A program made the translations under genes and the position numbers. This document shows positions 1,901 to 13,586 of a stretch of DNA of 64,000 nt, one piece after another. Under the pieces are notes generated by a model, which did no database searches, was not told where the DNA came from, and was given only the letters and a program-made list of their open reading frames with translations. The stretch is from Gemmatimonadota bacterium (lineage in GTDB: Bacteria > Gemmatimonadota > Gemmatimonadetes > Gemmatimonadales > Gemmatimonadaceae), in NCBI GenBank assembly GCA_028287305.1, contig JAQBPX010000029.1, positions 62,001 to 126,000 on the forward strand, given 5' to 3'. The first letter of the stretch is position 1, and every line of letters begins with the position of its first letter.

Positions 1901-1929
1901 AATCTAGTGTGTCACTCGGTGGGCTTCAA
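1901..1929 (-). promoter_or_regulatory. Sigma-70-type promoter for tRNA-Gln
   Basis: Reading the minus strand, TTGAAG (1924-1929) and TAGATT (1901-1906) are separated by exactly 17 bases. The predicted start lies about 45 bases upstream of the mature tRNA. It overlaps the longest possible 5' end of the divergent plus-strand lipoprotein gene. Confidence 0.6.
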
Positions 1930-3232
1930 GTCTCGCCTGCCTACCCCAACAGGACGCCAATCCCTGCCACGTCATGGAGTTAGGAACACCGTAGCGGCGC
2001 TCGCGCTCCTCGCCGCGGGCGCCTGCCACGGCTTCGAGTCCCAGCTCACCGCCGGCGGCCCGGACGGCCGCGCCCGCGCCGACCAGCTCTTCTCGGCCCT
2101 GGGCGCCCGGTACACGCAGCTCATCCGCACCCCACGCTACGATTCCGCCCGCTTCCGGCTGGCGCATGCGTCGCTCATGCCGTCGCGGGTGTTCGACGAC
2201 AGCACCACCTGGACGGCGCGCACCGCCGACACGCGCACGCTCACCTTCGCGGGCCATGCCGTGAACGGGCGCTACGTGATGGACCTCGCCCCCGGCGCGC
2301 CGCTTCCCGTGCGCCCCGGCGACTCGCGCCACGTCGTGGCGCTCACGAAGCTCGATCACGACGGCTACGCGTGGGACACCGACGTCCACTTCTCGGTGGG
2401 GAGCATCGGCGCGCGCGACGTCGGCGACGCCATCGCCGCGCTGCTCTCCGCCGCCGAGGGACGCAGCGGAAGCGACGTCATCGCCGACGTCCACGCGTCA
2501 TTTCCGGCGACGTCGAAGGTCGCGTCGATGCTCTTCTCGCTGGACAGCGTGCGGCCGGTGCTGCTCGCCGATGGCTCGACGCAGAGCTCCCTGCTCATCC
2601 GCCTGCATCCCGACCGGATGCGCGCGCGCTTCCCCGACTACGGGGACTACCTCACGAAGTACCTGGCGTCGACGACCTATCACATCTCGGTCACCGACCG
2701 CGCGGGCGCGCAGTACCTGGAGGCGATCGCGCAGGGAAAGGCGCTGCGGATCCGGGTGCGCACCAAGGGCGGCGAGATGCTGCCGCTGGGTGGCGGCACG
2801 CGCGTGCGTCCCGATTCGCTGCTGCTCACGCTCGACCTCAGCACGAAGGTGAGGATGTTCACGCTCGGGCTGCGCAAGCTGGTGATGGACTTCACGGTGG
2901 GCCGCTCGGCGCACGAGCGATCGTGGACGTTCGTGGCGCACACGGACCCGGAGTGGGACCTGCCCTTCGTCACCGAGCGCCTGCTGCGCTCCCCGTTGCG
3001 GCGGCCCTTCCAGGGCGCGGGCTCGCAGTTCCGGCTGGCCGTGCGCGACAGCGTGAATGGCCCGACGCTGGTCTCGCGTCACCTGCACGTGGTAGTGCAG
3101 GAGAGCGCGATCTTCCGGTTCCTGTCGGCGCTGAGCGGGAATGCGATCGACGACTTCCAGAAGAAGGCGGACAAGGAAGAGGACGAGTGGCTGCGGATGC
3201 TGTTCGAGGCGTTGCGGGCGGATATCAGGTGA
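1907..3232 (+). CDS. Hypothetical lipoprotein, unknown function
   Basis: The 441-residue reading has a hydrophobic stretch VAALALLAAGAC near residues 29-40 that looks like a lipoprotein signal with a lipidated Cys. The mature part has no motif I recognise; it alternates beta-rich segments with Arg-rich turns and ends in a charged helix (DDFQKKADKEEDEWLRM). The start is uncertain. No ATG lies in frame near the signal, so GTG at 1907 or GTG at 1919 is the best option, and both sit inside or beside the divergent tRNA-Gln promoter. The coding frame is supported by its length and strong third-position G+C. Confidence 0.7.
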   Translation: MCHSVGFKSRLPTPTGRQSLPRHGVRNTVAALALLAAGACHGFESQLTAGGPDGRARADQLFSALGARYTQLIRTPRYDSARFRLAHASLMPSRVFDDSTTWTARTADTRTLTFAGHAVNGRYVMDLAPGAPLPVRPGDSRHVVALTKLDHDGYAWDTDVHFSVGSIGARDVGDAIAALLSAAEGRSGSDVIADVHASFPATSKVASMLFSLDSVRPVLLADGSTQSSLLIRLHPDRMRARFPDYGDYLTKYLASTTYHISVTDRAGAQYLEAIAQGKALRIRVRTKGGEMLPLGGGTRVRPDSLLLTLDLSTKVRMFTLGLRKLVMDFTVGRSAHERSWTFVAHTDPEWDLPFVTERLLRSPLRRPFQGAGSQFRLAVRDSVNGPTLVSRHLHVVVQESAIFRFLSALSGNAIDDFQKKADKEEDEWLRMLFEALRADIR

Positions 3233-3239
3233 GGGGCCT

Positions 3240-3599
3240 GAATGCGGAAGGCGGGCGCCTGCAGGCGCCCGCCTTTGTCATTGGATTTGTGTTCGATGTT
3301 GAGGGGGGCGGCAGTCGACTGGCCGATACCGAGTTACGGTTGCCTGAAGACTGAAGCCGGAAGCTCGAGCACTGACGCGGAACGCGGCGGCCTTCGGCCG
3401 CCGCTTCGTTATCCGTGAACATGTCAACCGAAAACCAATGACGAGGCGCGCAGCGCTTCGTTGTCAGTGCTCGAGCTTCTGGCTTCAGGCAACAGGCAAC
3501 CCGGACCTCGGTATCACTGTGCGCGGCCAGGCCCTCGAACATGTGAACCCCAGACCAATGACAAAGACGGGCGCCCGCAGGCGCCCGCCTTCCGCATCA
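3240..3599. repeat. 360-bp imperfect palindromic element with nested hairpins
   Basis: Bases 3240-3376 are an imperfect reverse complement of 3463-3599. Matching blocks include GCGGAAGGCGGGCGCCTGC, TTTGTCATTGG, GATACCGAG and GAAGCTCGAGCACTGAC. Each arm contains its own GC hairpin (3250-3273, a perfect 10-bp stem GGCGGGCGCC; and about 3567-3589). The centre carries a 9-bp hairpin (3384-3404) and the words ATCCGT and AACCAATGAC. The same core and hairpin recur at 12241-12317. No coding sequence is present. It fills the gap between the plus-strand lipoprotein gene and the minus-strand tRNA-Ala. It could be a bidirectional terminator or a non-autonomous mobile repeat. Confidence 0.85.
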
Positions 3600-3600
3600 C

Positions 3601-3738
3601 GTCCCGGCCACAGACCACAGACCACAGACCCCTGAAACGGCCGGGGAGGAGACAGCACGACACTCCCGGATACTCGAACGCCGCCGATCTCGAAAGAGAT
3701 CAGCGGCGCCTGAACAGGGGGCAGCAGCACCCCTGTTT
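3601..3738. repeat. Non-coding stretch with tandem 7-mers and three hairpins
   Basis: The 7-base word CCACAGA is repeated three times near 3608-3628, inside flanking CCCGGCC (3603-3609) and GGCCGGG (3639-3645). Two further hairpins follow: GCCGCCGATCTC with GAGATCAGCGGC around 3683-3711, and AACAGGGG with CCCCTGTT around 3714-3738. No gene is visible between here and tRNA-Ala. Confidence 0.55.
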
Positions 3739-3839: not shown

Positions 3840-3912
3840 TGGAGCTGAGGGGAATCGAACCCCTGACCTCTGCAGTGCGATTGCAGCGCTCTCCCAACTG
3901 AGCTACAGCCCC
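3840..3912 (-). tRNA. tRNA-Ala (anticodon CGC)
   Basis: The 73-nt cloverleaf has acceptor stem GGGGCTG/CAGCTCC including the G3:U70 wobble pair that specifies alanine. Its D stem is GCTC/GAGC, anticodon stem CTGCA/TGCAG, and T stem AGGGG/CCCCT with loop TTCGAAT. The anticodon CGC (plus-strand GCG at 3877-3879) reads GCG, which fits the GC-rich codon use of the window. The discriminator is A; CCA is not encoded. Confidence 0.96.
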
Positions 3913-10952: not shown

Positions 10953-12161
10953 GTGCACCTCACTTCCCGCTCGCTCTCGATCGCCTTCGTCGTTCTCGCT
11001 TCGTGCACCGCGAGCGGGGAGCGGAAGCCGGGCGACTCGGCCGCCACGCTCCGCTCCGACAGCGTGGCTGCAAGGGCGCTGTCCAGCACCCCGTCGCAGG
11101 GAGCGACGGCCGCCACGCCGCAGGGGCAGCCTGCGGCGCCGACGCCCGGCGTGATCGGCACCGACCCGGTGCGCGCGCTCTACGTGAACCGGTTCGCGGC
11201 GCAGAGCAGGAAGAAGATGCACAAGCTCATCGCGCTGGCCGACAGCACCGAGATCAACGCGCTCGTGATCGACATGAAGGACGAGTTCGGGCTGAACTAC
11301 GCGCCGGCCAACGCCGACTGGGCGAGGAATGCGGGACACGGTGGCACCGTGCGCGACCTGAAGGGGATGCTCGACACGCTCAAGGCGCACGGCATCCTGC
11401 CGATCGCGCGCCTGGTGGTGTTCAAGGACTCGGTGACGGCGCGCGTGCACCCCGAGTGGACCATCCGGAAGCCCGATGGCACCGCGTGGCGCGACAAGAA
11501 GGGGCTCGCGTGGGTGAACCCGTACCACCGCGAGCTCTGGGAGTACAACATCGGGGTGGCGGAGGAGCTGGTGAAGCTCGGCTTCGGCGAGATCCAGTTC
11601 GACTACATCCGCTTCCCCGAGCCGTACAAGAGCCTGCCGCCGCAGGTGTTCCAGGGCGCGGATGTGCCGAAGCCGGTGGCGCTGCAGCAGTTCCTCTCCC
11701 TCGCGAAGAAGCGGCTCAACGCTCTCGGCGTGCGCTCGACGGCCGACATCTTCGGGCTGGTGACCACCGTGCGAGGAGCTCTGGAGGTCGGGCAGGACTG
11801 GGAGAAGGTCTCACCGGCGGTCGACGTCGTGCTCCCGATGACCTATCCAAGCCACTACCCGCCCGGCTCGTTCAACCTGCCGCACCCAAACGCCGAGCCG
11901 TACAAGGTGATCCTCACGGCGGTGCAGAGCGCGGCGACGCGCGACGCGGCGCTGGGCATCAAGTCGCCGGAGCACGTGCGCCCCTGGTTGCAGGCGTTCA
12001 CGCTCGGCGCGCCAGCGTATGGCGTGGAGCAGCTGCTCGCGCAGAAGAAGGCGGTGTACGACGCGGGCTACGATGGCTGGGTGCTGTGGAGCCCGGGATC
12101 GCAGTACGACATTTTTCGTGGGGCGCTGGAAGCGAAGTTCGAGAGCAGGAAGAAGAAATGA
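10953..12161 (+). CDS. Putative glycosyl hydrolase lipoprotein (DUF4015)
   Basis: The 402-residue protein resembles DUF4015 putative glycosidases with a TIM-barrel fold. GTG 10953 gives a lipoprotein signal with Cys18 (VVLASC), then a Ser/Thr/Ala-rich linker to about residue 70. The barrel begins with VRALYVNRFAAQS and includes NALVIDMKDEFG, LPIARLVVFKDS, GFGEIQFDYIRFPE and VDVVLPMTYPSHY. Asp and Glu residues in these strand ends are the likely acid/base pair. The substrate is unknown, but an outer-membrane or periplasmic anchor suggests cell-wall or exopolysaccharide glycans. Confidence 0.83.
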   Translation: MHLTSRSLSIAFVVLASCTASGERKPGDSAATLRSDSVAARALSSTPSQGATAATPQGQPAAPTPGVIGTDPVRALYVNRFAAQSRKKMHKLIALADSTEINALVIDMKDEFGLNYAPANADWARNAGHGGTVRDLKGMLDTLKAHGILPIARLVVFKDSVTARVHPEWTIRKPDGTAWRDKKGLAWVNPYHRELWEYNIGVAEELVKLGFGEIQFDYIRFPEPYKSLPPQVFQGADVPKPVALQQFLSLAKKRLNALGVRSTADIFGLVTTVRGALEVGQDWEKVSPAVDVVLPMTYPSHYPPGSFNLPHPNAEPYKVILTAVQSAATRDAALGIKSPEHVRPWLQAFTLGAPAYGVEQLLAQKKAVYDAGYDGWVLWSPGSQYDIFRGALEAKFESRKKK

Positions 12162-12178
12162 ATTGGTGATGCGGAACG

Positions 12179-12365
12179 GTGGCGGCGGCCGGTAGGCCCG
12201 TGAGCCCGTGGGCTCGAACACTGACATCGTGTGCGGCGGCCGCTGGCAGTCGCTTCGTCATCCGTTCCATGTTGACCGAGAACCAATGACAAAGGCGGGC
12301 GCCTTCAGGCGCCCGCCTTCCTTGTCACTGCTGTAGCCTACGGGCCTACGGGCCGGCCGCCGCAG
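12179..12365. repeat. 187-bp imperfect palindrome with the shared AACCAATGAC core
   Basis: The outer arms GCGGCGGCCGG and AGGCCCGT (about 12180-12210) recur in reverse complement at about 12336-12365. Inside are CGCTTCGTCATCCGT, CATGTTGACCGA, AACCAATGAC and then a perfect 10-bp hairpin GGCGGGCGCC, TTCA, GGCGCCCGCC (12294-12317). This core closely matches 3405-3433 and the arm hairpins of the 3240-3599 element. It fills the convergent gap between the DUF4015 and SufS-like genes. Confidence 0.82.
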
Positions 12366-13586
12366 TTACTTCGCCACCCTGGCAACAGCCCCGACGACGC
12401 GCGCGACTTCCTCAGCCGTTGTATAGACTGAACAGCCGAGCCTCACGAGTCCTTCCACCCCGAGCCGCTCGATGATGGTCGCGGCATAAAAGTCCCCATC
12501 CGAGACGTAGAGTCCATCGGGCACCAGCGCGCGCGCGACTTCCGTGCTGGTGTGGCCCTTCACCGTGAATGAGAGCGTCGGCGTGCGCGGCGTGCCGGGG
12601 CGCGGGCCGTACAGTGTCACGCCGGGAACCGCCTCGAGGCCGGTCCAGAGCGCGGTGAGAAGTGCGTCTCCGCGACGGTGCAACTCGTCGAAGGTGGCGG
12701 CCAGCCGCTCGCGGCGTGTTCCCTGGGAACCGGCGAGCGAAGCAAGGAAGTTCACCGCCGCGCCGGCACCCACGATCCCCTCGTGATTCTGCGTGCCGGT
12801 CTCCAGGCGATCCGGCGCATTGTCAGGCGCGGGCGCGAGCTTCGGCACGTCCACCCGCTCCAGCAGCTCGCGCTTCACCCACAGCACGCCCACGTGCGGG
12901 CCGTAGAACTTGTACGCCGAGCAACCGAGCGCGTCGCAGCCGATCGCCTGCACGTCCACCAGGTGGTGCGGCGCCCAGTGCACGGCGTCCACGAACACCA
13001 GCGCGCCCACGGCCTTCGCCATGCGCGTCACCGCTGCGACGTCCGTCACGGTGCCGAGCGCGTTGGATGCGGCGCCGATGGCCACGAGCTTCGTCTTCTG
13101 CGTGATGGCGCGCGCCAGCGCATCGAAGTCTGTGCGTCCATCCTCCACGCGCATGGGCACCATGCGCACGGTGATGCCACGCTCCACCGCGAGCGCCTGC
13201 CAGGGCGCCACGTTGGCGTGATGGTCCAGCTCCGTGACCACCACCTCGTCGCCCGGTCCCCACGCACGGCCGAGGCCGCGCGAGAGGTGGAACAGCAGCG
13301 TGGTCATGTTCGCCCCGAATGCGATCTCGTGCGGCGCGCCATTCACGAAGTCCGCCAGCGCGGCGCGTGCGTCGTCGATCAACGCGTCCGTCTCGGCGCT
13401 GGTCGGGTACGCCCAGTGGGTGTTGGCGTTGTGGTGATACAGGTAATCCACCATCGCCTCTGCCACCGACCGGGGCACCTGGGTGCCGCCCGGCCCGTCG
13501 AAGTAGGCGATGTGCTGGCCATCGGCCGCGCGACGCTCGAGCGCCGGGAATTGCGCGCGGATCGACTCGACGCTGGCGACCGTCAC
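12366..13586 (-). CDS. SufS-like cysteine-desulfurase-family PLP enzyme
   Basis: The 406-residue fold-type I enzyme belongs to the cysteine-desulfurase-like SufS family. PLP binding is shown by TELDHHANVAPWQ (His stacking), FVDAVHWAPH and the lysine Lys226 in CSAYKFYGPH. The C-terminal segment that carries the persulfide cysteine in true SufS reads YVSDGDFYAATIIERL, with no cysteine, so sulfur transfer through a protein persulfide is doubtful. GTG 13586 overlaps the upstream dehydrogenase stop (GTGA), so the two genes are coupled. Possible alternatives are a lyase or aminotransferase on a related substrate. Confidence 0.85.
   Translation of the reverse strand: MTVASVESIRAQFPALERRAADGQHIAYFDGPGGTQVPRSVAEAMVDYLYHHNANTHWAYPTSAETDALIDDARAALADFVNGAPHEIAFGANMTTLLFHLSRGLGRAWGPGDEVVVTELDHHANVAPWQALAVERGITVRMVPMRVEDGRTDFDALARAITQKTKLVAIGAASNALGTVTDVAAVTRMAKAVGALVFVDAVHWAPHHLVDVQAIGCDALGCSAYKFYGPHVGVLWVKRELLERVDVPKLAPAPDNAPDRLETGTQNHEGIVGAGAAVNFLASLAGSQGTRRERLAATFDELHRRGDALLTALWTGLEAVPGVTLYGPRPGTPRTPTLSFTVKGHTSTEVARALVPDGLYVSDGDFYAATIIERLGVEGLVRLGCSVYTTAEEVARVVGAVARVAK

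Follow-up and report, generated by a model that had tools for sequence, protein, structure and literature searches.

A nested composite of REP/BIME-like palindromes and heptamer arrays at gene ends in a Gemmatimonadaceae bacterium

The genome of a bacterium of the Gemmatimonadaceae carries a family of palindromic repeats with a modular anatomy, whose layers also occur free-standing, which lie at the 3' ends of genes, mainly between convergent ones, and in which the flanking arrays are matched and the stems keep their pairing. One copy is the 360-bp inverted repeat at 3240-3599 of the window, by which we mean the whole stretch of 64,000 nucleotides that was analysed (C37:62001-126000 of a 4.37-Mb genome in 39 contigs, rated 100% complete). 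We favour, with a probability of roughly 0.55, the reading that this is a lineage-restricted, non-coding composite repeat of the REP/BIME-like kind that has spread by recombination and copying. In class it is an unusual variant of the known REP/BIME-like intergenic palindromes, combined with heptamer repeats, and it does not look like a gene or a long functional RNA.

Results

The inverted arms that had been described from the letters of the DNA are real. The repeat finder returns them at 3242-3376 and 3463-3597, with small indels, as the pairs 3242-3294/3545-3597 (53 nt, 89%), 3325-3339/3501-3515 (87%) and 3338-3376/3463-3501 (39 nt, 90%). Each arm has its own hairpin, as had been noted, in the form of a GGCGGGCGCC hairpin at each outer end (3248-3275 and 3564-3591); the centre, where one hairpin had been seen, does contain a hairpin but in fact holds two (3384-3404 and 3440-3464), giving four GC-rich hairpins, each stable alone. 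The repeat also runs past the right end first given to it, through (ACAGACC)3 to about 3650. Aligned with the eight end-to-end copies described below, the whole composite spans 3236-3650; its left outer flank is lost and it abuts the stop of the ORF at 1907-3232, and its right outer flank is present. From the left, it consists of an outer hairpin of B type (AAGGCGGGCGCC-TGCA-GGCGCCCGCCTT, 3246-3277; -30.9 kcal/mol, z -4.8), a spacer (3278-3321) that is common to the aligned four-hairpin copies and consistently unlike its counterpart on the right, and a nested inner element. The latter comprises a left terminus, GCCGATACCGAGTT (3322-3335, plus strand), a degenerate GCCTGAA-type heptamer array of about three copies (3340-3366, plus), a two-hairpin core (3364-3469, plus), an array of the same unit inverted (3474-3501, minus) and a right terminus, CTCGGTATCAC, placed by repeat finder and alignment (3507-3517, minus). 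The core is the basic repeat unit, present 31 times in the genome (match to model R1, E 8e-28), and includes inner hairpin 1 (GCGGCGGCC-TTC-GGCCGCCGC, then TTCGTTATCC; 3384-3404, plus) and inner hairpin 2 (GACGAGGCGC-GCA-GCGCTTCGTTGTC; 3440-3464, plus). The right spacer, which includes CCCTCGAACATGTGAACC (3518-3559), the outer right hairpin, also of B type (3564-3592, from repeat finder and fold), and the outer right heptamer array (ACAGACC)3 (3610-3632, minus) complete the copy.

No convincing gene lies in the element, in agreement with the first description; the overlapping ORFs are mechanical only, and the codon-based caller puts none there. An Rfam scan of the window returned two tRNAs, with no curated family matching the element. 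On the left, the ORF at 1907-3232 ends 13 bases ahead of the outer hairpin, and on the right a tRNA-Ala gene on the minus strand (3840-3912) is read toward the element, which thus lies between two converging transcription units. The predicted RNA fold of 3230-3610, a check that had been proposed, reaches -258.9 kcal/mol against -156.5 +/- 5.5 in shuffles, 18.5 standard deviations below them (z -18.5, 0 of 100).

A DNA search of the genome gave eight matches to the whole core and many partial ones, and for eight copies an end-to-end alignment spans 344-349 bp, with 78-90% identity. Twenty copies served to build a covariance model of the two-hairpin core, which finds 31 distinct loci at E about 1e-8 or better; by reading of their flanks, these are nine four-hairpin copies (the eight end-to-end ones and the diverged C21:231440), four three-hairpin copies, two halves and 16 two-hairpin elements. 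Chance or a one-off duplication, for which an absence of further copies would have argued, is contradicted by these 31 loci, though relatives are without copies. Indeed, the search through the complete genome and its relatives that the sequence-only reading had proposed gave many copies in the former and no convincing one in the latter: a DNA search of 58 further genomes, all outside the genus and 34 of them from within the family, found no copy, and only three matches to the covariance model arose in relatives, all marginal (E 5e-4 to 9e-3) and treated as chance. Plasmid and phage collections gave no match. A single match to the inner terminus in Shimia, from a pattern scan of named genomes, was likewise taken as chance, and an impression that the centre is inverted in some copies was dropped, as it came from unoriented loci. 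A literature search on nested and palindromic repeats, including Gemmatimonas, turned up no relevant work other than the REP/REPIN papers.

Each basic unit measures about 190 bp and runs from an array of three 7/8-mers through a linker, a GC hairpin, the centre, a second GC hairpin and a linker to the array inverted. The inverted pair of hairpins sits in a constant frame, with GCTCGAGCACTGACaaGG and CTTCGTCATccGTTC around the left one and GAACnnATGACgAAG and CTTCCTTGTCAGTGCTCGAGC around the right one; about three copies of a 7- or 8-base unit bracket it on the left, and that unit in inverted orientation closes it on the right. These units are GGCCCGTA/GGCCCGCA (O8), GGTCTGT (C7), GCCTGAA (S7) and, once, GGCCTGAA. 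The window copy has an S7-type inner element whose termini are GCCGATACCG/CGGTATC; an inner element of that type with the same termini stands solo at C10:95851/95893, and C7 elements without an inner one are found at C16:338134, C24:224273 and elsewhere. Since the inner type occurs alone and the outer type occurs without it, we read the composite as a unit that sits in the middle of a second one. The left and right spacers differ consistently across the aligned copies, and therefore the nesting probably took place once and the composite multiplied afterwards. To judge from their alignment, the eight end-to-end copies would share one ancestral composite, and the three-hairpin forms fit deletions that may have occurred between repeated CTTCCTTGTCAGTGCTCGAG linkers. 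In several copies, among them at least four with four hairpins, both nested units are enclosed by a further pair, that of the common GTCATCCTGAGCG repeat, here called E (GTCATCCTGAGCGnnGCGAnGGATCT). The window holds a second, free-standing two-hairpin element at 12177-12366, with inverted GGCCCGT octamers as brackets, between two convergent genes whose ends are at 12161 and 12366; its distances to the two gene ends are 35-51 bases.

The two arms of a single copy resemble each other no more closely than do arms from separate copies (hairpin 87.2 v 88.4%, spacer 78.8 v 76.9%, inner array 80.4 v 80.5%). Thus pairing over the 137 bp has drifted while the short hairpins alone have been kept, a pattern that goes against the long stem or cruciform that had been suggested from the sequence. 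A functional structured RNA or cruciform, in which the long 360-nt stem is selected, would account for the very low folding energy and for outer arrays that match across the element, but it is largely refuted by these arm identities, with the long pairing not restored, and by a family whose majority is two-hairpin only and which has no Rfam match; we consider it very improbable. In contrast, at least six stem sequences fill one frame across elements, and each stem is a closer match to its own partner than to a swapped one (p 5e-5 on the left, less than 1 in 20,000 on the right). Because the stems vary yet pair, while the long arms show no co-evolution, it is the local hairpins and the matched flanks that are maintained, and not the long stem.

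With types assigned by eye, the flank arrays are of the same type on both sides in 11 C7/C7, 11 O8/O8 and one S7/S7 elements, against two C7/O8 (Fisher p 1e-4). Within types, too, the left and right arrays of an element resemble each other more than permuted ones do, with the two mixed elements left out (p 1e-4 overall, 5e-4 for O8, 0.06 for C7), and O8 elements with GGCCCGT and with GGCCCGC are almost wholly separate, each unit occurring on both sides. Matched arrays could be produced by arm-to-arm copying or by subfamilies moving whole, and in the latter case could merely mark those subfamilies. The arms of inverted repeats are known to be homogenised by template switching between them (PMC8604942, PMC7202029). 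In the core tree, c3, with octamers on both flanks, is placed between groups with heptamer flanks, at 99% support on either side; core and flank histories thus disagree, which favours exchange between core and flank by recombination. The mixed-flank elements C37:50535 and C4:203883 look like crossovers, and may be such.

Y1 transposases are the usual agents of REP-like repeats. Our transposase search, which covered the Y1/RAYT class (PF01797), gave 0 matches in this genome, and control genomes do match. This bears on a second account, in which the palindrome with its hairpin ends is a MITE- or REPIN-like non-autonomous element, moved whole by a trans-acting transposase that is now lost or unrecognised, and in which the array types mark subfamilies. 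The full-length copies with defined hairpin boundaries would be expected of it, as would the matched flanks, an inner element that has GCCGATACCG/CGGTATCGGC as its inverted termini and is found both nested and solo, and inverted hairpin pairs that resemble REPINs (PMC3116915). However, the Y1 class is missing from a genome rated 100% complete, the copies are 10-22% diverged, with even the closest differing by 10%, and plasmid and phage records hold no match. Alignment of the copies for ends and target duplications, a step that had been recommended, did yield the inner GCCGATACCG termini, but the outer ends are octamer, heptamer, E or none depending on the copy, and inspection of the aligned flanks by eye showed no target duplication. 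As no copy occurs in another genome, no empty site or new insertion is visible, and spread is judged from copy number alone. We regard this account as a distinct possibility, if well short of even odds; of the non-autonomous mobile repeat first proposed, the dispersed copies stand and active mobility is unproven.

By the gene caller, 18 of the 31 loci lie between convergent genes, 12 are in tandem, none is divergent and one is without a right neighbour on its contig; the convergent total becomes 19 of 31 once the tRNA-Ala is counted for the window copy. Convergent gaps number 8 of 57 in the window (enrichment p 2e-9) and make up 30% by length (p 3e-4), and the absence from divergent gaps has p 0.009, all of these being rough values from a home-made codon-based caller trained on the window and a null from that one window. 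None of the 31 two-hairpin loci is called within a gene, save for a doubtful 49-base overlap at C4:219591. The convergent excess and the lack of divergent loci indicate that the elements stay out of promoter regions and prefer the ends that two genes share. Such a location makes bidirectional termination or 3'-end protection a likely role as far as sequence can tell, and the elements probably act as bidirectional transcript ends; the convergent bias could also reflect tolerance, not function. A terminator scan found one terminator-like site, inner hairpin 1, against 0.9 in shuffles, with weak T runs. That the elements are plain bidirectional terminators which converged in shape, with no common repeat ancestry, would agree with the convergent location, the GC hairpins at gene ends and the covarying stems, but unlinked copies are 78-90% identical over 346 bp and share spacers outside the hairpins, which demands common descent. 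Convergence of this kind is refuted as the sole explanation and seems to us hardly credible, with a terminator function possible alongside descent.

The E repeat (GTCATCCTGAGCGnnGCGAnGGATCT) has 128 sites in this genome at up to 3 mismatches (reversed control 0). Its distribution across the phylum is patchy, with 24 of 150 genomes carrying it, some in up to about 100 copies; a literature search with its string found no paper. It also occurs at 25-50 of the window. Alone, it forms palindromes of 65-83 bp in genomes from other genera of the order (G056, G039). The free-standing E palindromes of G056 (L124-L130) are 83 bp long and have a variable dinucleotide that is equal in both arms in six of seven, and at G039:C6:56540-56900 (L131), in another family of the order, a 65-bp E palindrome sits within (GAGAGGT)3 and its inverse. 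Intergenic tandem arrays in an 864-kb sample of the genome number 16 for period 7 against 1.6 expected, and 19 for period 8 against 0.0. A strict scan of the arrays found no inverted partners and a relaxed one found five in periods 7-8, partly outside the hairpin family. Arrays of an unrelated heptamer, TTTGGGC, form inverted pairs without the double hairpin core at C4:127084 and C4:212983 (loci C4:126981-127300, L140, and C4:212881-213190, L144). Together, the period-7/8 excess, the TTTGGGC pairs, the G039 brackets and the inverted heptamer pairs known from Xanthomonas suggest that bracketing by matched arrays may be a general architecture. A bolder version, which we find doubtful though worth stating, is that matched inverted 7/8-base arrays of many unrelated units (GGCCCGTA, GGTCTGT, GCCTGAA, GGCCTGAA and TTTGGGC here, GAGAGGT in G039) surround hairpin palindromes in intergenic DNA across the order, and that template switching between the palindrome arms, together with slippage, would make these arrays, keep them symmetrical and grow the palindromes as nested shells with no transposase.

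Discussion

REP, BIME and REPIN sequences are dispersed extragenic palindromes that occur as inverted hairpin pairs and in higher-order clusters, as singlets and as doublets (PMC3116915, PMC2817692). The present family resembles those of Pseudomonas and the Enterobacteria in its dispersed extragenic palindromes and in hairpin pairs arranged as inverted doublets, but it differs in a unit of about 190 bp with array brackets and several exchangeable stems, in nesting at the centre where the known repeats form tandem clusters, and in a genome without the RAYT/Y1 transposase; with that transposase missing, the element lies outside the REPIN-RAYT system as tested. The short intergenic heptamers of Xanthomonas (GGGAATC) and Nostoc (GGGGATT), often in two close inverted arrays according to the part of the source used here (PMC4692102), are similar in being heptamer arrays in inverted pairs. 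Xanthomonas, however, has a single G-rich unit, whereas here at least five units occur, four of which bracket hairpins with a left-right match; only 16% of the Xanthomonas heptamers lie between convergent genes, and the description in that same part contains no hairpin core (PMC4692102). MITEs are likewise short, non-coding, dispersed and built of inverted repeats, but here no parent transposase was recognised (Y1 being the class sought), no duplication was seen by eye and the outer ends are inconstant. The E repeat forms the outermost layer in several copies, yet is a separate repeat with its own patchy distribution and is absent from the window copy of the element.

In the recombination and copying that we favour, a unit with GCCTGAA arrays and GCCGATACCG termini came to be nested in the centre of another unit, and the four-hairpin composite probably arose once and multiplied later. 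Copies would spread and exchange parts through recombination or gene conversion between scattered hairpins; arrays would be built by slippage and kept matched by template-switch copying between the arms of the palindrome. Selection may tolerate copies only downstream of genes, where their hairpins could terminate or protect the transcripts arriving from either side.

The usual explanation for small bacterial repeats is a trans-acting transposase. Here, nested palindromes, exchangeable hairpins and matched arrays are found, yet the genome is without the expected transposase. The family thus offers a natural test of whether arm copying and recombination suffice to build and spread repeats, and it also bears on whether bacteria end transcription between converging genes with repeats of this kind.
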